NCBI GenBank assembly: GCA_009602725.1
Contig: WELB01000001.1
Location: 1,797,524-1,820,653, forward strand
DNA: 23,130 bases
Source of the DNA: Spirogloea muscicola
Taxonomy: Eukaryota; Streptophyta; Zygnematophyceae; Spirogloeales; Spirogloeaceae
Direction: 5' to 3'
A program made the translations under genes and the position numbers. Position 1 is the first letter of the stretch, and every line of letters starts with the position of its first letter. Below the pieces are notes generated by a model. It had not been told where the DNA came from, searched no databases, and was given only the letters and a program-made list of their open reading frames with translations. Below, piece by piece: positions 258 to 21,102 of this stretch.

Positions 258-883
258 TCACCCGCCCGGTGGTCCTGTCCTGCCAGGGAGCCTGCTGCAT
301 AGAAGTCCACCGGCTCCCCAAGGCTGCGGCGGCCGATAGCGTGGCCGGAAGTTTGTTGAGCAGCTCGAGCCACCTAGCCTTGATCTCTCCTTTCATGGGT
401 ATTTTCGAGTATTTATTACAAACACAGGCCAAATGGCCAAGTATAAAGGCAAGCACATCTGAAGACGTACATCTCACCTTTCATGTTCCATACTTTTTAG
501 AGCTCCCTTTGCCACGGAATTTTCTTTGCCAGCCCCTCTTCTCTTTGGGCGAGCACTTCCTTCTTTCATGGGGTTCGGGTGTTGCGAGTCAAGGGGCCAG
601 ATGATCCAGGCTACTTAATTACTCTTGGTGCGCATGATATAAAAGCGAGGCGAATTCAAGCCAACACATTGTTCAGGCATTGTCCCGGAAGAGTTCTTCC
701 AAATATATAGTTCGTGTATTTGAATCAAACGAAGGCCAAATGGCCTAGTACAAAGGGGGGCAGGGGCTGTGAAAGAAATTGCTCGCCACAGAGAAGAGGG
801 GCTGGGCAAGGCCAGCCCAAAATGAATGGACAAGGCGAGCACAGGGTTGTGAATATGAGTGAAGGAGGCGTTGCCTCACAGGC
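258..883. repeat. Repeat-rich spacer with fragments of several dispersed families
   Basis: No convincing gene. Three short families recur here and elsewhere. (1) GGCCAAATGGCC followed by AAGTATAAAGG and AGCACATCT at 427-473, again at 730-757, matching the hairpin element at 10136-10284. (2) CCAGCCCCTCTTCTC followed by GGGCGAGCAC near 525-557 and, inverted, near 793-841, matching subrepeats of the 13.5-14.6 kb foldback structure. (3) GGTGCGCATGATATAAAA to GTTCAGGCATTG at 630-682, the reverse complement of blocks at 9810-9860 and 12930-12990. The last copy ends about 40 bp before the anthranilate synthase start codon, so repeat DNA probably forms part of that promoter or 5' UTR. Confidence 0.6.
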
Positions 884-3663: not shown

Positions 3664-4968
3664 CTAAGAATCTCTGCTAGAAGCGTGTATGACTATACCA
3701 TTTGGATTGCCGTGCTCATAGAAGCTCTGGAAGAGCTCAATGGCCTCATCTGCTAATATCCCACCGACGCACACTAGTGCGGGAGCTGTTGTGCCTAAGG
3801 ATTTCTCGCGCGAGTCAACTGAAGCACTGCAGTGAGACATTGGAGGGTAATTTGAGCAAGTATTCTGTGATGTCAAGTGCCATCCCAGTTTCTTGCCATG
3901 GTTACGTGACAAAGTTGTACCTTTTGCCGCATGGCCCAGAGCCGGCTACGTTCAAGTGCAGTACAGCCCCACAGCCTCCAAAACGATAATTTGCGCACCC
4001 AAAATACACCTTGCGCAAGCCTGCCTCAATTCACTGATGACGAGTCATGCCTATGTTCCTGCACGATGAGGACCGCATGCAAGCATGAGCTATTTTGACG
4101 TATCCTCTCCCTGTGACTTGTCAGGAGTTGCCACAGCACTATTGTCAAGCAGCACTTGAAGATACTGAGGACAGCTTGCCAGCATACAGTCTGCTTGCAG
4201 AATTCTTCTGTGAAGTAGGATGTCCTGTCATGTACACACACAGCGTAAACGTGTCTCACCGAGTATTGACAAGGCAGCCGAGCACATGATGCAAGGCTCG
4301 CAGGTTACGTAGAGCTCGCTATCTTGCAGCAAAGCGGCCAGGTCCTCTTGGCGACTGGCTCCAGATGTGCGCCACTGCTTCAGAAGATCATCAAACGCCT
4401 CCATCTCGGCGTGCCTTGTTGCCTGTGACAATGGACAGCCAGGCTGCCAGCTGGAAAGATTTGCAGACTGATCTTGGTGGGGATTCACTGCATGGGCTGC
4501 AGGTCGCGAATGCCGTCCACTCGTTTGTATGCATCCTCTCACACACGAAGCTGCTCGAGTGCAGGGCAATCAGAACAATACATTGCGCATCTCATTTGTG
4601 CGGTTGCTGCCTCGCCCAATGACCTCGTCATGGTGCACAATCACGCAACTGGGAAAACACACAGCATTGACCAAACACCGTCACTCAAGCATGTCAAAGT
4701 GTCGCAGGCTCGACGGTACGTGACCGTCTGCGTCTGCGCAAGCAGCTCTAGGCGAGCTTCTGAGGCCGTCTGCTGATGCTGAGGGGAGGTCAGAAGACCG
4801 CGGCAGAAGGTGATACGCAGCGGCTCACCCGACCGGGACTTCGGCCCTCGCGAGCGCGGCGCGGGACTGCATGGCACGCGGGCGCAGGGCTTGTCGCGGA
4901 CTTAGATGGGCATGCGTCAGCCACCCTGTTGGCAACTCGATGCCGATGCCGAGCGTGAAGCCTGCCAT
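3664..4968 (-). CDS. tRNA-specific adenosine deaminase, catalytic subunit TAD2/ADAT2 type, 5 exons
   Basis: Exons in coding order: 4968-4829, 4648-4582, 4422-4260, 4020-3921, 3826-3664; 633 nt, 210 aa, phases consistent. The family deaminates adenosine 34 (wobble) of tRNAs to inosine as a heterodimer with TAD3. Landmarks: EVPVG|CVIV across the first junction, RGSNRTNE, the zinc/proton-shuttle motif RHAEMEAF, the second zinc motif TCEPCIMCSAAL, then KVYFGCANYRFGGCG and the C-terminal GGILADEAIELFQSFYEHG. All three expected zinc ligands (one His, two Cys) and the catalytic Glu are present. The N-terminal part of exon 1 matches the family only from about SRAALARAEVPVG; the usual first helix is not obvious, so the ATG at 4968 is provisional. 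It is divergent from PSMD9. Confidence 0.88.
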
Positions 4969-5255: not shown

Positions 5256-5256
5256 N
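5256..5256. other. Ambiguous base (n)
   Basis: This is the only undetermined base in the window. It falls in a GC-rich stretch, 36 nt before the first in-frame ATG of PSMD9 and close to where the family's start codon would be expected. It limits what can be said about that start. Confidence 0.99.
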
Positions 5257-9783: not shown

Positions 9784-9900
9784 TGAAGCCCCAAAAATTG
9801 TACTAGCTTTTTGCCTGAACACTGCATTGGCTCCACTTGGCCACCCTTTCATTTCATGCGCACCGCGTTCTCTCTTTCTTTCGTCTTCGGCGGGGAAAGA
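9784..9900 (+). repeat. Dispersed repeat, copy related to 12876-13013 and to inverted copies
   Basis: This segment runs from GAAGCCCCAAAAATTGTACT through TTTGCCTGAACACTGCATTGG and ACTTGGCC to CATGCGCACCGCG and a CTTTC tract. The same order of blocks recurs at 12876-13013, and in reverse complement at 630-682 and twice at 14047-14214. It is an anonymous short-element family. Confidence 0.65.
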
Positions 9901-10135
9901 AAGCGCGGCCACATTAACTGGTGGCTGGGAGAGGCCAGCCCAAAGGAATGCACTAGGTCTGAAGGAGCCGGAGTGCTAAGGACTAAGACATCAGCAAGGG
10001 GAGGCTCGGCGGGGAGGGCTCGTGCATCGCTTTGTGTCTAGTTGTGTAAGTGTTGTTTCCGGCACCTATTTTGGCTTTGGATTTGTCCTTTCTTTTGGGC
10101 TGGCGTTGCCAGCTCCTCTTCTCTAAGATGATGGA

Positions 10136-10284
10136 CGTCTCTAGATGATGTGCTTCCCTGTGTACTTGGCCGTTTACACGGAATACACGAAACTCCTCGC
10201 TCGCCCTTAGAGAAGAGATTTTCTTGTATCTGAAACAAACAAAGGCCAAATGGCTAAGTACAAAGGGAAGCACATCTAGAGACG
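10136..10284. mobile_element. MITE-like hairpin element, about 149 bp
   Basis: Terminal inverted arms start CGTCTCTAGATG at 10136 and end CTAGAGACG at 10284. Each arm is about 37-41 nt and pairs over GTGCTTCCCT and GTACTT with a 3-nt insertion and a few mismatches. The centre (about 70 nt) has no ORF. Parts of the same sequence (GGCCAAATGGCC...AGCACATCT) occur at 427-473 and 730-757, so it is dispersed. Short size, terminal inverted repeats and lack of coding fit a non-autonomous DNA element. No target-site duplication was confirmed. It lies just upstream of the GRAM gene. Confidence 0.6.
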
Positions 10285-10494
10285 AGCCCTTCTCTCGTGC
10301 CACTGATCGGCGCCGTATCTGTAACTTAAGACCACGATGGGAGAATGGGCCACAACGCAGCCCCCACCAGACGTCAACTCGAAAGAGCATTGAAAGAGCG
10401 CCGTTCAATCCCAGCACTCAAAACCAAACGCGCTTGGCCCGCCCCTCGCCAAGCGCGGGCAGCCAGGGCTCCCCGTCGGGCCCTGCTGGTGCGC

Positions 10495-12225
10495 ATGGCC
10501 GCCGCGGAGACCGCGGTGGCCGGCGGCGCCAAGGCCGCCTCCGCGGCCGGGCTGGAGGATGGCGACGCCGTGCTCGTGAGCCGCAGCGATGCCTTGGAGG
10601 ACGGCAGGCCGGAGGCCCAGGCTGGCCCGCCGGAGCCGGTAGCCGCCTTGCCTGCCGAGACCGAGCCCGCCGGCCCCGCGGGCGACGGGCCGGCGGCCGC
10701 GGCGTCGACTGCGGTGGGCGACAAGGCATGGCTGTCGGATGACGGGTGGAAGGACCTCGGGCATGCGTCCGCGGAACTGGGCAAGAATGTGGCCGCTTTG
10801 GCTTCCACCGCTGGCAAGGAGGTCAAGGCGGCAGCACAGGAACTCACAAGCAAGGTGAGGGCGGAGTTGTTGGAGTTTCTAATGCAGACATTCCGAAGCT
10901 CTTTGAAGCTTGTGGTTGACGCTCTGAAGATTGTCACGTGCCTGCGAGGGGGGAGGGGTTGATGGGTGCTCGGGCACGTCAGGCTCGTCAGGGGAGTACC
11001 ATGTGGTGCAGCCATGGCATCAGCCCTTTCATCTGGTCCTCACGCCTGCTGGACATTTTGAGGCGGCATCGGCAACGGGAGCCTGCCTGACCAGGGTCTT
11101 CCATCTGGCTTGTGGAGTCAGATTGCAGGTACTGGCTTGAATGACTTAAGCAGCAAGCTGTCCACTTGGTGGACTGCCTTGGACCCACCAAGGGCAAAAG
11201 AGCCGACCCCGCGACCAGAGCCGCTCAGCAATCGGACCCCTAGGTCCAGAGACTCTGCCGAAGCAAGCATGCAGACGCTCTTCCGCATCTCTCCTTCAGA
11301 GAGTCTCATTGAAGGTCGACTCTCTGCCTTCAGGGCCAATCTTGGCAAATAGTATTGACAATCTTTCTGTAAAACTTCTTACCTGTCCAACACATTTCCT
11401 GTAGATGATGACTCATGCAGTATGATAGAGTGAGAGCATGTCAGGCAGAGGCAGTGTCATCTCAGGAATGATCTCATGCACTTGAAGTATCTGAGACAGC
11501 ACAGATATGCCTGTCCTGCTTTACACTCATATTCTTGGGCCCTGCGTCTGCCTTGTCGTGCTGTACAGCATTCCCGTGCACCTTGGTCCAAATGTACCAG
11601 TGCACCCACAATGTCTACACTGCAGACATGCCTGTGGACTTCGGCGGCACTCTGTACATCTCCGACAAGCACGTCTGTTTCCACGTTTCGGCGGTTGAGA
11701 AGCGTACACGTGTGCCGGTCTGTTGTCACCAGCGAGACTTTTGCATTTCGACCACTGTGTCTGTATGAGAGATGAGGAGCACAACAATCCCTTTGCCTAC
11801 TTGGGCATGTACTAAGGTATAATAGCTTTCATTGTTCCTTAGATGACAGCTCGTTATGCTGTCATCTGTGTGCAGGTAATTGTGGAGCACACCCGCTTGA
11901 GCAATGTCAGTCGAGAGAAAGCTGGCAAAAGTGACAAGTCAGATACGTTGAAGCTGTCTCTGGAACCAGGCAAATGGGTATGTTGTTTACTGTGACAATT
12001 GACAAAATTGCTCCACTTTGCATGGAAGGGGACTGAGCAGCATTGCTTGTGACACATGGATTCAGTGTTGGATTGAGTGTGACGTGGCCAAGCAGTCCAC
12101 ACTCATGGAATTGTGTGAGTGTTGCTTGGCAGTTTGCCGTGAAGGACTTTGCAGGGCCCGAGGAGATTGAGTCAGCTCATGCTTTGCTCGAGCATCTTGT
12201 GGAGGCGGCACACATGTTAGCATGA
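10495..12225 (+). CDS. GRAM-domain-containing protein, 5 exons
   Basis: Exons: 10495-10854, 11122-11314, 11569-11717, 11876-11977, 12133-12225; 897 nt, 298 aa, all phases consistent. The GRAM domain (about residues 183-265) shows SESLIEAFPCTLVQMY, then DMPVDFGGTLYISDKHVCFHV, RTRVPVIVEHTRLSNV, and SDTLKLSLEPGKWFAVKDF, ending in a helix EIESAHALLEHL. GRAM is a PH-like membrane/phosphoinositide-binding fold used in membrane-contact and signalling proteins. The first 120 residues are Ala/Gly/Pro-rich and low complexity, followed by a predicted amphipathic helical stretch (ELGKNVAALASTAGKEVKAA). ATG 10495 has a good context (GCGCATGGCC); an in-frame ATG at 10345 would add 50 residues. Exon 3's donor at 11718 was chosen by phase and family fit. 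No enzyme domain is visible, so the specific role is unknown. Confidence 0.85.
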
Positions 12226-13526
12226 ATGAGATGGTGTGTAAGGACCTTGCTATAAAGGGTGCATAACTTTGTACAGACGCGTTGTGTATATTTCAGACAG
12301 CATTGCTGCTGACTATTAGAATAGCTTTAAGCAGAACGTGACAGCCTTTTTATCAAGCCTTAGGCTCGTACTTGCCATGGTACCTCCTCCTGGCATTGGC
12401 CCTCCTAATGCTAAGACGTGGCTTCGCATGTGTGCTGATCCTCTTCTGGCTGGCTTCTGAGCCGGGCTTGTCTCATGAGCAATCAGCGCCCTCGAGAATG
12501 AGTTACAATGTCTTGTCTCCTTCTAGGCACTATGATGGGACACTAATTAAGCTCAGAAGGCCTCCTTAAGCATACTCAGAACAGCCTAGAAGTCAGAACT
12601 AGATCTCCCATGAAGTGCTCCATCTGACGTTGTGTGATGTTTGTGTACCATGAATTGCTAGCTATTTATTACACTAAGAATCCACAAGCACGTCAAGGCA
12701 GCCTGCCATTTTGTGATCTTGTCAATGAGCAGGATCTCCCTGGTCCTCCAAGTAAGCCTGTCGTACTCATATGTGATCACTCATATGTGGTCACTCGTGG
12801 GTACTGAAGTCCCCCTTCTGCTGGCTTTTGCACTATTATCTTTTTCTCCTTAGCATAAGGCTCTGCGCTTTGTGTAGCCCCAATCTCTGTACTAGACTTT
12901 GCCTGTTTCTTTGAAGTAGTTCTTTTGAGTAGTTGCCTGAGCAGTGCCTTGGCTTAATTTGGCCTCCCTCTCATATTCTATGCACTGCGCGCCTTCTCTG
13001 TCCTCTCATCATAGCTCATGCCACAGCTGCGTGGATTGACTAATAGTCACAAGCAGCGAAACATACACACAGAACACAGAAAGCATGCGGTCCGTAACAA
13101 AATGAGAGGGAGATCAAAGCAAGCCAGTACACTGTTTGTAAGAAGAACGAAGGAAATTTTTTGATAGAGGCTAAAGCTACATAACGAAGTACACAACCAA
13201 ACGGGGACTCTAGTCCTCACAAGTGAGCATACATATATCTGCCAGACTTATCTTGGGCGCCGGAGCACCACCCCGCAAGTTAGTGGCCTGGCTTAGTGCG
13301 CGCCCAGCTTGCTGATGTATGGCTAGAGCCTGGTATGCTGCAAAGGAAGCGAGAGCCGCATTCTGTGCATATGTCCAATGCGATTAAGCGCTTTCTGACC
13401 CCTTCTGAACCTTCTTATTCTCTTGCGTTCACAGTCATCGCCATTTTGTGAGAAGAATTATCATGCAATGCTGATCGTTGAGCCTGGCAGGCAGGTCCAT
13501 CCAAAGCTCTCCCCCTGTCAACAAGA
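12226..13526. other. Gene-free spacer with dispersed repeats
   Basis: No gene is recognised. 12876-13013 is a copy of the repeat at 9784-9900. Around 12766-12805 there is a short direct repeat of ACTCATATGTG. A 65-codon ORF (12372-12569) starts with a hydrophobic stretch but has no other support. A CTAGTCCTCACAA block near 13210 recurs at 14092. The rest looks like ordinary intergenic DNA with no visible signal. Confidence 0.5.
12237..12241 (+). terminator. Possible TGTAA polyadenylation signal of the GRAM gene
   Basis: TGTAA begins 12 nt past the stop codon of the GRAM-domain gene, in the sense orientation. This pentamer is the common chlorophyte polyadenylation signal; the site is close to the stop, so the 3' UTR would be very short. 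Confidence 0.4.
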
Positions 13527-14580
13527 AGAAAGTGCTCGCCTGTTGAGGATAGGGGCTAGAAAAGCCAGCCCAAAAATGAATGAACAAAGTACGAGAATGG
13601 GGCCAGGGCAAGCGCTAAGAAAAACAAGCACACAAAGAAATAAAGCAGCTACGAATCACTCAGTAACCCCTGCTAAGCAGCCGCAGATAAGAGATGCTAG
13701 GCTCCTGGAAGTGGGTCCCCCTGGCCAGAGCCAGAGGCAGCAGCAAGGAAAGGAAAGTGCTCGCCCGTTGAGAACAGGGGCTGGAAAAGCCAGCCCAAAA
13801 AAGAATCAACAAAGGACGAGAAGGGGGCCAGGGGAAGCGCTAAAAAAAACAAGCACACGAAGAAACAAAGCAGCTACGGATCACTCAGTAACCCCTGCTA
13901 AGCAGCCTCAGGTCAGAGACGCAGCAAGGGCTCTGCCGGCACGGCTCTGTCAACGGTCTTCAGGCACATGCACTGTCGCTCAAACGTGAGAAGCAACGCT
14001 GTGTCAATCCGCTGGCGTCGGCGGGAGCAGGCTTAGGGTGTTGAAAGAGATAAGGCGCGCGGTGCGCATGAAGTTGAGAGAGAGGCCAATTCTAGTCCTC
14101 ACAAATGTCCTATTGACCGGGGAATAAGTTAGCTGAAAGAAAAGAGAGAAGGCGCGCGGTGCGCATGGAATTGAAACGGAGGCCAAGTCTAGCCTTACAA
14201 ATGTCCTGCTGACCTAAGGCTGCTTAGCAGGGGTTATTGAGTGATCCGTAGCTGCTTTGTTTCTTTATGTGCTTGTTCTTCTTAGCGCTTCCCCTGGCCC
14301 CCTTCTCGTCCTTTGTCGATACGTTTTTGGGCTGGCTTTTTCCACTTCCAGGACCCTAGCCTCTCTGATTTGCGGCTGCTTAGCAGGGGTTACTGAGTGA
14401 TTTGTAGCTGCTTTCTTTCTTTGTGTGCTTTGGTTTCTTAGCGCTTCCTCTGGCTTCCTCTGGCCCCCTTCTCGTTCTTTGTTCATTCTTTTTTGGGCTG
14501 GCTTGTCCAGCCCCTATCCTCAATGGGCGAGCTCTTTCTTTTTCCAGCCCGTATTCTCAATGGGCGAGCACTTTCTTCTG
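13527..14580. mobile_element. Foldback-like structure: two tandem subrepeats, spacer, two inverted copies
   Basis: Subrepeat A (13527-13713) and B (13752-13919) are direct copies with a period of about 225 bp. C (14212-14341) and D (14342-14540) are their reverse complements in mirror order (A B | B' A'), with a further partial copy at 14541-14580. Each unit carries GGGCTGG...CCAGCCC, GGGCCAGGG, AAGCGCTAA, AAGCAGCTACG and CAGTAACCCCTGCTAAGCAG. Arms of about 400 bp made of tandem subunits around a 290-bp centre are the hallmark of Foldback-type elements. No transposase is visible. The sense frame of A and B reads KASPK, GPG.AL and NHSVTPAKQPQ in register, so a translated or once-coding repeat is possible. 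A local inverted duplication is the alternative. Confidence 0.65.
14047..14214. repeat. Tandem pair inside the foldback centre
   Basis: Two units (14047-14118 and 14142-14214) share GGCGCGCGGTGCGCATG, GAGGCCAA, CTAG and ACAAATGTCCT..TGACC, with a period of about 96-99 bp. In reverse complement they match the dispersed repeat at 9784-9900 and 12876-13013. The middle of the foldback is therefore itself made of another repeat family. Confidence 0.7.
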
Positions 14581-15026
14581 CTGAAAGGGATCGTCACGGA
14601 GTGCCCCATGGACGGCAAGCAGGCGCTGACGACGGCAGGATCCGGACTCGTGGGCCGCCGCTTGGGGGAGGGACTTTTAGACGTGGGGGAGGGGGGGATG
14701 CACCTGCCTCTGCCAATGAGCAGCGCGGCACAGTCCACGCTGGCAGATTGAAACCAACCCGAACACACGAGAATGCCACGGATGCAAAGCTGGAGCGCCA
14801 CGCAGGCGTCGCGGGAAATCAGCCGCCCTGGCCGTCGCCGCCGCCGCCGCAAGCCCGCCATCGCTGCAAGACTCCCGCGCGCCTCCTGCTGCGGCATCCG
14901 AGTGCCTTCTGCAGCACCGCCGGAATGCTGGTGCGCGCCTCCGGCTGCAGCATGGCGGCCGGCCTCCGCGCGTCGCCGGGCCGGGTGGCGGAGGCCGTCG
15001 CGGGGAGTCCACCGTGATCACCGGCC
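14581..15026 (+). promoter_or_regulatory. Upstream region of the SBP-box gene
   Basis: A gene-free, increasingly GC-rich stretch between the foldback structure and the SBP start codon. It should hold the promoter and 5' UTR. No core element was recognised; overlapping Arg-rich ORFs on both strands reflect base composition. Confidence 0.4.
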
Positions 15027-18000
15027 ATGGAGGCGCTCCTCGCGGTCGCCGCCGCGCCGCCTGAAGGCCGCACGGCTGCTGTCGAGCGCTGGAGAGCTGC
15101 CGCGTCCTTGGAGCACACAAGCTGGGAGGCGCAGGAGTGGGACTGGGACGGCGACCTGCTCATCGCCAGCCAGCCCGAGGCGCTCGCGGCCGGGCCCGCG
15201 GACCCGACGCCGCCGCAGCCGCCGCCGCCGCCGCCGTCGCAGCCGCCGCAGCCGGGCAGCAGGCATACCGACGAGCCCTTGGTGCTCCTCGGCACTGGTG
15301 TCGCAGCAGCGCCGGGGCGGGCGCAGCCTCCCTTGAGTTACCTTCTTCCACAGGATGCCTCCGTCAAGGCCAGAAACCCCGACTGCCCGAACCTCAAGGC
15401 CGGGCGCGTGCCCTGCGCATGCACCGATGAGGACGAGAAGCTGCTCAAGAGGCAGCGCATGGTCATGCCCTTGGCGCCGCTGTCGTGCCAAGTCGCCGGG
15501 TGCCCAGCCGACTTGCGCAGCGGCAAGGAGTACAACCTCCGGCACCGCGTATGCGAGGAGCACGCCAGGGCGGCCACGGTGCTGAGCGAGGGCGAGGTCG
15601 TGCGCTACTGCCAGCAATGTGGCAGGTGGGCTCCACGGGCCTTGACAAGCCCTGCCATTCATGCCCGTCAAGTCCAGCATTTGTTGACGCAACCAGTACT
15701 GCAAGCTGGCTCCAAGCGTGCTTTTGCTTTGATACCAGACTGGTGTCGTTGTACCTAGCAGTTCTGGGTGCGAAGGCTTTGCGCTATCTGAGCTGCAGGT
15801 TACATCCATTGCTGGAGTTTGACGAAGGAAAGAGAAGCTGCCGTCGCAAGTTGGAGAAACACAACACAAGGCGACGCAGGAGGATGGGCCTTACGAACGT
15901 TCTCGAGGGGCCAGGCAGCAAGGATGCGGAGCAAGATGAGGAGATCCTGGCAATGCGTAAGCCTGCTATGCATCTCTGCAAACCTACAACTTGAGTCAGT
16001 GATACTCCTCTGCCAGGTCCATGAAGAGGTTGAGACACGAGAAACAACAGCCACCTTTCCACAAATGCGATACAGCATAGTCCAACAATGAGTGGCCGTT
16101 CAAGCATCGCATCCGTAGACAGTGTACGTCTGCTTATGTGAGGACATTGATCACCGTGTCTCACACTAGCAATTATGCTGCACTGGGAGGAGAGCTTTGC
16201 CAGCGTACAATGTTGGGAGACCACGGGGATCTACTGATGAAGCAGTTGTAGACAAGTACATGACATTTACCGTACCTTGTATAAGTGCCCTCCAGTATGT
16301 GCCACCTTCATGTCGTTGCGCGTCTACATGTTGCTGCTATTTGACCATGTCAGAGAGCTCACCTATATCCGTTCCCGACAATGCCTGCTGCAGCTGCAGG
16401 TGATAGATACAAAGCATCAGCAGCATCAGTGTCCAAGAAAGGCAATAGCTCAACGGCCGAGCAGTTGCAGTCAGCAAAATCTAGGGCACGGTCAACACCA
16501 AAGACCTCACCCTCGCCTCACTCAGCAGACTATGCCGTCAAGGAGTCCACAACATTGGACCTCAGCACAACGACGTCACTGAGTGCGGCGGAGAACTCTC
16601 GGCTGAATCTCAGTCGGCTTACATTGGGACCTCTGGACGTTGCACAGCCGACAACACACACTGGAAACTTTCCACAGGAAGCTGAGCGCAACTTGGCACA
16701 GCAGGATGAGCTCAGGGCTAAATCTGAGTCAGGCGAAGCCGCCTTGGAGACCACCGCCCACTTGCTTCTTTCAGCAGCTAGCGACCAGCAACCAGTGGCG
16801 CAACTAGAGCAGGCGCCAGGTGTAGGAGTGCCTGGGTTCTTAGAAAGTCACACGGACACAGCACAGGTACTATCCTTGATGGAACTCTTGACTGCGTCCG
16901 GCACCGACAACTTACAGGAAGATTTGGCAGAGGAGTTGAATGAACAGCCCTCCCTACTGACGCGGCATGAGATTAGGAACTTTCAAGACACCTTCCATTA
17001 CACACCAGTGGTAAGGGATGAAGCTGCCATGGTTGTGCTTGTCCATCAGCAAGCACATAGCAAGATCTGGTGTGATCACTTCAATCTCAAAGATGCTGGA
17101 GATGTCACGAGCCGAGTATGTGAGGATTTCCAAAATCAGGGGACTTACTTCATATCCTCTGAGTTGTGAACAGCAATGCTCAGGCCGTATATCCTTCAAA
17201 CTTTTTGATTGGAACCCTGCTGACTTTCCACGTCATTTGAGGAATCAGGTCCGTCTTCCCTCCTCTTTGTGAGCACCATGTGCTTTCTGAGTCAGTAGTT
17301 GCTTGCTAAAGCTCCTCCACTTTCTCATTTCCAACTTCTTATTGTCAGACCTCCTAAGCAAAGGTGCCGCTGGATTGAACCTCAATCACTGTTCACATCT
17401 CAGGTCATGGACTGGTTATCAAGTATGCCTTCTGATTTGGAAGGCTTTATCAGCCCTGGCTGCACATTGCTCACATTGTTTGCAGCAATGCCTTCAACAA
17501 AGTGGGCTGAGGTGTGGTTCCCCCTGTGGGAAGCTGAACGATACTTATGAGCTTATGTTGCTGTGTGACAAGTCAATGCACCACTTCTAAGGTCCTTTGT
17601 GAAGTGATTCCTTGAATTTTAGACCCAAGTGTTTGAATGTCTAACACCCTAAATGTCTGGAATATCGCGCAGCTTGAGAGCAATCTCGAAAGAAGCTTTC
17701 AAGTGCTCATGGCAGGGGAGGGTGGAGAGTTTTGGGCCAAGGGTCGGATGTTGGTACAGTGCTCCAATCTTGTCACTTACATCAAGAACGGTCAGTCAAG
17801 GATTGACTAAGCAATGTAGTATCAAATCAGCAATGGAGTGTAATTCAATCTTGCTGGTAGCACCTCAGTCTATGTCCAGGAACACCAAGCTATTTGTACA
17901 TTGCATGCTGTATACATGATGCAGAGGACACGCAAGACGAGTGCGTGATTAGGATATGTGCCAGCTTTCTGGGTTAGCCTATCATGCACGTCCTGACAAG

Positions 18001-20387: not shown

Positions 20388-21102
20388 TATTGCGGTTAGT
20401 ATGACTCCTGCTCGATGATCCGGTTTAGGGTTAGAGGAAACCTCCCTTGCCATTATGTTCAGCTGGTTCTTCTGCCAGTTGTACCAGCTCTTTCTGGTCG
20501 CAGCATGTATTTGCTATATCTTTGGCAGGTTCTTCTGCCACTCGTACCAGCTCTTTCTGGTAGCAGCAGTACATGCTTGTGGGACGGGCTCTACAGTGCA
20601 TGGCAATCACAGTGCATGGTAATTACTGATATAGCATGATGCACACATGACGATTACAGGGATCATAGATCTACTTGGTTTACCTTAAAATAGACAGTAC
20701 CGACATACAATGTTGAGGGGCTACATTCTTGCCGCTTGCTGTTTAGCCTCAATTCTGGGGGACACAACAATGTTGCACAAAAATTTACAGGCTGCTCGAG
20801 TGCTGTCCTCTGCCAGATGCTTCATACCAGATAAACCCTATGCTTGAATGGGCTCCCTCTACGACAACCTTCACATTGGGCCCTTGCAGGCTTCAAGCCG
20901 CATCCACAGGCCACATACTGTTCCCTTTCACTACACTTCTGAACACTCTTGCCATTACTTCGTGGCCACTAATATCCACATTTACAGCAAAGCAAGTATT
21001 GAAGGCCTGAAAGGCCTCCAAGAAATACAGCTAGTACTATGCCCTTCACAGTGGCAAAGTGTGGCAGGGGCAAGAAGGGCCGTCTGTGTTGTGGCAGAAG
21101 CC
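20388..21102. other. Convergent spacer between the SBP gene and POP4
   Basis: It contains the two-copy tandem repeat at 20465-20575 and a single TTTAGGGTTAG telomere-like motif near 20423. A TTACA (TGTAA on minus) near 20982 could be a distant POP4 polyadenylation signal. The ORF at 20848-21144 shows no recognisable domain and is antisense to the end of POP4. I see no gene. Confidence 0.5.
20465..20575 (+). repeat. 63-bp tandem repeat, two imperfect copies
   Basis: GGTTCTTCTGCCA and CGTACCAGCTCTTTCTGG (TTGTACCAG... in the first copy), with a GCAGCA tail, occur at 20465 and again at 20528. The repeat starts 78 bp after the SBP stop codon and so probably lies in its 3' UTR. Confidence 0.8.

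Follow-up and report, generated by a model that had tools for sequence, protein, structure and literature searches.

The window analyzed here, which is a stretch of 23,130 nucleotides, contains a long inverted repeat at 13523-14543 and, downstream of it, an open reading frame at 15018-15758 (+) that carries an SBP domain (Pfam PF03110, E 1.7e-16). The end of the element is located approximately 450 bp upstream of the start of this gene, with the ATG placed at 15027 according to the reading frame. SBP domains are not known outside green plants and green algae, and their presence next to the element makes a green alga a plausible host, in line with the original prediction. On the other side of the element, a GRAM-like match at 11472-11768 remained below the Pfam cut-off (16.4 versus 23.6 bits). 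Further away, the open reading frame 4228-4569 (-) possesses a cytidine/deoxycytidylate deaminase domain (Pfam E 1.1e-8), and we take it to be, probably, an exon of a tRNA adenosine deaminase. No Rfam family at gathering score and no tRNA or tmRNA were found in the window.

The element consists of four copies of one unit, arranged as A1 A2 followed by A2' A1', and each complete unit comprises a head of approximately 65 bp and a body of approximately 120 bp. As delimited by self-BLAST and alignment, the left arm contains the outer unit A1 (13523-13714, +), composed of head, body, and a 17-bp junction tail, and the inner unit A2 (13748-13922, +), which starts 225 bp after A1. The right arm contains the inner unit A2' (14209-14340, -; A3 in reverse complement) and the outer unit A1' (14342-14543, -; A4 in reverse complement), the latter carrying a tandem insertion of approximately 10 bp. 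In other words, a dimer with 225-bp spacing is followed, approximately 290 bp further on, by an inverted copy of the same dimer. The original prediction had claimed two direct units and then two inverted ones in mirror order (A B, B' A') for 13527-14580, and both the self-comparison and the whole-window BLAST demonstrated that this order is real. The direct pair 13528-13697 / 13753-13922 shares 90.0% identity over 170 positions, and the inverted pair 13523-13714 / 14543-14342 (85.1% over 202 columns, E 2e-62) is the best inverted match of the whole-window self-BLAST. Two further inverted pairs, 13785-13916 / 14340-14209 (93.2% over 132) and 13749-13922 / 14542-14359 (83.2% over 184), were detected in the same way. 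Moreover, the arm-to-arm alignment stays colinear through the A1-A2 junction, with 296 of 324 positions identical and a score of 467; the highest score among 200 shuffles of one arm, made in two-base blocks, was 51.

Arms of approximately 400 bp had been anticipated, and this length applies to the left arm (13523-13922), but the right arm (14209-14543) reaches approximately 335 bp only, because 69 bp of the left arm are absent from it. The gap begins immediately beyond the A1' junction tail and takes in the A2' head, so that A2' is represented by its body only, and the arm alignment reads TGG on both sides of the gap. A fifth copy of the head (14540-14581, -), which is a 42-bp fragment with no body, is located outside A1', where it forms a tandem with the head of the arm, according to repeat comparison and profile search. 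With this fragment included, the outermost 17 bp (13524-13540 / 14563-14579) form a perfect inverted match within an inverted pair of 40 bp (88%). The centre (13923-14208) was expected to be a tandem pair of another repeat family. Such a pair is indeed present, namely two copies of module C at 14044-14118 (+, BLAST) and 14141-14214 (+, BLAST and profile search), which share 85.3% over 75 positions in self-BLAST, but it occupies just the right-hand side of the loop, with its second copy overlapping the right arm by a few bases. The remaining 110-120 bp or so are free of detected repeats; for 13923-14031, this holds for BLAST with E up to 0.01 and for the best 25 of 84 inverted pairs.

The end of the body (13871-13907), together with its counterparts in the other three units, varies in 3 of 37 columns across all four units. 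It contains the near-palindrome CTGCTAAGCAG, which is possibly a candidate binding site, or a product of chance.

False palindromes are generally known to be possible in assemblies, and an inverted repeat of this kind could in principle result from a false inverted join, as the original prediction had considered. However, the two arms disagree at 28 of the 324 aligned positions and are further distinguished by the 69-bp and approximately 10-bp indels, and the sole N of the window is at 5256. Because of this divergence between the arms, an assembly artefact is extremely improbable.

A protein-coding role of the arms was also considered, and it was rejected on the basis of Pfam, codon-position counts, and the frame-shifting effect of the approximately 10-bp insertion. 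An open frame of 196 aa (13399-13989) runs through A1 and A2, and the minus strand holds a comparable frame (14265-14513). The former gave one sub-threshold Pfam match (Moricin, E 0.093, 12.9 versus a cut-off of 27.6 bits), and no Pfam match was obtained for the latter. Substitutions at first, second, and third codon positions were about equal between A1 and A2 (8/61, 7/60, and 8/61), were 11/47, 6/47, and 6/46 between A1 and A2', and leaned slightly to third positions only between A1 and A1' (7/66, 6/65, and 10/65). These counts do not suggest coding, and the stretch is apparently non-coding.

The original prediction also held that a transcript of the element would form a long double-stranded hairpin, which is right as far as folding models go. 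The predicted fold of the plus strand has a minimum free energy of -678 kcal/mol, compared with -372 +/- 12 in 20 dinucleotide shuffles, and comprises 308 arm pairs, including 10 G.U pairs, with the longest uninterrupted helix covering 50 bp (13859-13908 / 14217-14266). It could be speculated that a transcript of 13523-14579 gives rise to a duplex of approximately 300 bp, from which Dicer would release small RNAs, possibly acting on the dispersed repeats or on the SBP gene. A precedent is available in Chlamydomonas, where, according to the accessible part of a previous study, small RNAs are largely DCL3-dependent and many precursor hairpins reside in UTRs and introns (PMC4817775). By analogy with what that part of the study describes, a long hairpin near a gene, as found here, might enter such a pathway (PMC4817775). 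Unlike these precursors, the present hairpin is a prediction from sequence and exhibits no sign of pairing constraint. The 28 arm mismatches comprise 14 transversions, 8 differences giving G.U on plus-strand RNA, and 6 giving G.U on minus-strand RNA; wobble-preserving changes are thus not in excess on either strand, although a single pair of arms affords low power. Furthermore, any long inverted repeat would fold likewise, and no Rfam match was found in 12800-14800 with E up to 2. Since there is neither a coding signal nor a wobble-preserving bias, nothing points to selection for hairpin RNA, and a small-RNA-producing locus is an unlikely explanation.

Parts of the element recur elsewhere in the window. 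The unit head occurs alone at three other places, including 769-839 (+; BLAST 772-833, E 1.4e-7), 486-565 (-; BLAST 521-564, E 5.9e-6), and, in a degenerate form, 10082-10127 (-; BLAST 10093-10123, E 8.7e-4; profile E 2.1e-4), all of which were found by profile search as well. In addition, a 37-bp relative of the head at 9908-9944 shares 76% with 785-821. No copy of the approximately 120-bp body was found outside the focal element by BLAST and profile search of the 23-kb window. Module C is also dispersed, at 12927-13014 (-; BLAST 12951-12999) and 9806-9893 (-; BLAST 9829-9882), both matched by profile search too, and at 600-687 (+) and, weakly, 13072-13136 (+), both by profile search. A further repeat of approximately 70-90 bp, module F, was detected by profile search at 395-478, 703-787, and 10210-10299 (+) and at 10125-10195 (-), with AGGCCAAATGGC in three of the four copies; it might contain a tRNA-like A-box. 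Module F adjoins A heads at two places and is absent from the focal element. The profiles for A, C, and F were built on most of the very copies that they matched, so their E-values are circular, and the BLAST E-values are the independent ones.

At 395-839, 9806-10299, and 12927-13136, the head, C, and F modules stand in an order unlike that of the element. The order also differs among these three places, so that the region has the appearance of old repeat debris that has been scrambled. The two C modules at 12927-13014 (-) and 13072-13136 (+, weak) form a small inverted pair approximately 60 bp apart, left of the element. At 9896-10127, two A-head-like stretches lie inverted approximately 140 bp apart, possibly representing a degenerate miniature inverted-repeat element; the best flanking match found as a target-site duplication there was AAGA, which was reached by 50.8% of random pairs. 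As well, two direct copies of 52 bp with 87% identity are present at 20454-20505 and 20517-20568, with a start-to-start distance of 63 bp.

The relationships among the four units bear on the order of events. The block common to all of them has 140 columns, of which 32 are variable and four are quartet-informative, and all four informative sites pair A1 with A1' and A2 with A2'. The 17-bp tail past the unit is likewise common to A1 and A1' (16 of 17 identical). Because of these four sites and the shared unit junction, the sequences suggest, with modest support, that the tandem dimer came first and the inverted copy of the dimer second. Differences in the common block number 14 for A1:A2, 15 for A1:A1' and for A2:A2', 16 for A2:A1', 23 for A1:A2', and 25 for A2':A1', and these raw distances do not cleanly mirror a dimer-first order and by themselves are no proof. 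The picture could also be blurred, or a dimer-first order imitated, by gene conversion between units.

We consider, with about an even chance of being right, that the locus is a long inverted repeat of foldback-like structure, non-coding and decayed, which arose through local duplications and persists as a passive relic, not as an intact mobile insertion. A single unit starting with a dispersed head would have been duplicated in tandem to give the dimer, and one inverted duplication would have produced the other half, by template switching or by break repair involving inverted heads close to each other. The product would not have been delivered as one intact mobile insertion, and it would presumably be without selected function. 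The colinear arms, the four informative sites, the shared junction tail, the TGG on both sides of the 69-bp gap, the lack of a target-site duplication at the tested boundaries, the differing module orders elsewhere in the window, the similar codon-position counts, and the make-up of the arm mismatches were counted in favour of this reading. Counted against it, the outer ends coincide with a head terminus that is roughly common to the dispersed copies, and the outermost 17-bp inverted pair is perfect, as transposon ends would show. On this local-duplication reading, the steps to a foldback-like structure are partly readable, from tandem dimer to inversion to loss in one arm; as a single relic, the element is of little weight.

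The same outer ends raise the question of whether the element belongs to the Foldback transposons, as its architecture had led the original prediction to propose. Its long inverted repeats are built of tandem subrepeats and, when the outside head fragment is taken as the right end, both ends carry identical terminal sequence; membership in the transposon group is nevertheless not established, and we file the element as foldback-like in structure, the Foldback interpretation being partly supported. It might be a genuine Foldback-type DNA transposon of the non-autonomous kind, perhaps Mutator-like, which a transposase acting in trans brought to this site; its target-site duplication and part of its right arm would then have been lost by decay. 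In addition to the internally repetitive inverted arms and the perfect ends, the dispersal of unit heads in the window and a plan similar to that of Tetris, as far as the available text of its report describes it (PMC4079207), argue for this possibility. However, flanking target-site duplications did not rise above random for either pair of ends, 13523/14579 or 13523/14543: at lengths of 4-12 bp and shifts of up to 6 bp, the best candidate was equalled or beaten by 82.8% of 1000 random boundary pairs, and no exact word longer than 5 bp is common to the boundaries. This outcome agrees in part with the refutation named by the original prediction, an arrangement unique in the genome and lacking boundary duplications. 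Nothing above random was seen at the inner ends A2/A2' or at the C/C pair either. This absence is not fatal, because twelve copies of Galileo have unmatched 7-bp flanks, as stated in the accessible portion of a previous report (PMC3573991).

Further evidence against the transposon reading comes from the fifth head fragment lying outside the right arm and from BLAST, which found no second locus of the A B, B' A' type in the 23-kb window. No transposase was present among the Pfam matches of 20 of the 114 open reading frames of at least 80 aa, two of the 20 lying inside the element. Many foldback copies carry no transposase, however, and a partner might be encoded elsewhere. Likewise, blastn of 13500-14600 gave no match in phage and plasmid records, short exact patterns taken from the end of the A body and from the A head had 0 matches in viral contigs and 0 in prokaryote genomes, the exact pattern for module F had 0 in viral contigs, and the SBP peptide yielded 16 pattern stretches in viral contigs with 0 confirmed. 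These results weigh little against a transposon, because none of these collections is algal. Taken with this evidence on both sides, a true Foldback transposon is a tentative reading, doubtful though conceivable. A broader scenario would be a green-algal foldback family, in which miniature A heads serve as transposase-binding ends and the double-stranded RNA of the long-armed copy silences the heads and tunes the SBP-domain gene; we regard it as very unlikely.

No foldback element in a green alga came up among the papers listed by the literature searches, which covered foldback elements with green algae and miniature elements in trebouxiophytes and, for PMC9033089, extends to the available part of the text. 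The one broad search on foldback elements and green algae is weak, because alga names, without foldback terms, dominated its ranking. Literature on long inverted repeats in connection with MITEs and siRNA or with Chlamydomonas, on Gulliver/TOC2, and on CRR1/SBP contributed nothing to the present analysis. If genome-wide copies exist, the element would define a foldback family for a group in which these searches listed none.

Compared with known systems, as described in the accessible parts of the sources, the present element resembles the Foldback-type elements, such as FB of Drosophila, FARE of Arabidopsis, Tnr8 of rice, and Tetris, in having inverted arms of tandem units and a variable non-coding middle. 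Unlike these elements, it has only two units per arm, no 8-10-bp target-site duplication was found at its ends, and it is known here from one locus of a host that is probably a green alga. Galileo, a foldback-like member of the P superfamily, likewise has internally repetitive long terminal inverted repeats (TIRs), TIR-shortening deletions, and some unmatched flanks, in so far as its report was available (PMC3573991), whereas no transposase relative was seen here among the scanned reading frames, and the superfamily is not assignable. Similarly, Tm1 (Mutator/Foldback) of root-knot nematodes possesses composite TIRs of variable length and is described as a decaying family in the available text, which also gives it 9-bp duplications, of a kind not found here, and an internal motif of approximately 14 bp (PMC3169594). 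Tetris of Drosophila virilis appears, by analogy, to have the closest plan among the published elements compared. According to the part of its report at hand, Tetris has no conserved ORF, variable middles, 8-10-bp duplications, and TIR repeats of approximately 220 bp in which 37 bp also occur in the terminal domain, and its TIR ends are common to the miniature element DAIBAM (PMC4079207). In the same manner as Tetris and DAIBAM, as far as that text describes them, the unit head of the present element also occurs alone in shorter stretches.
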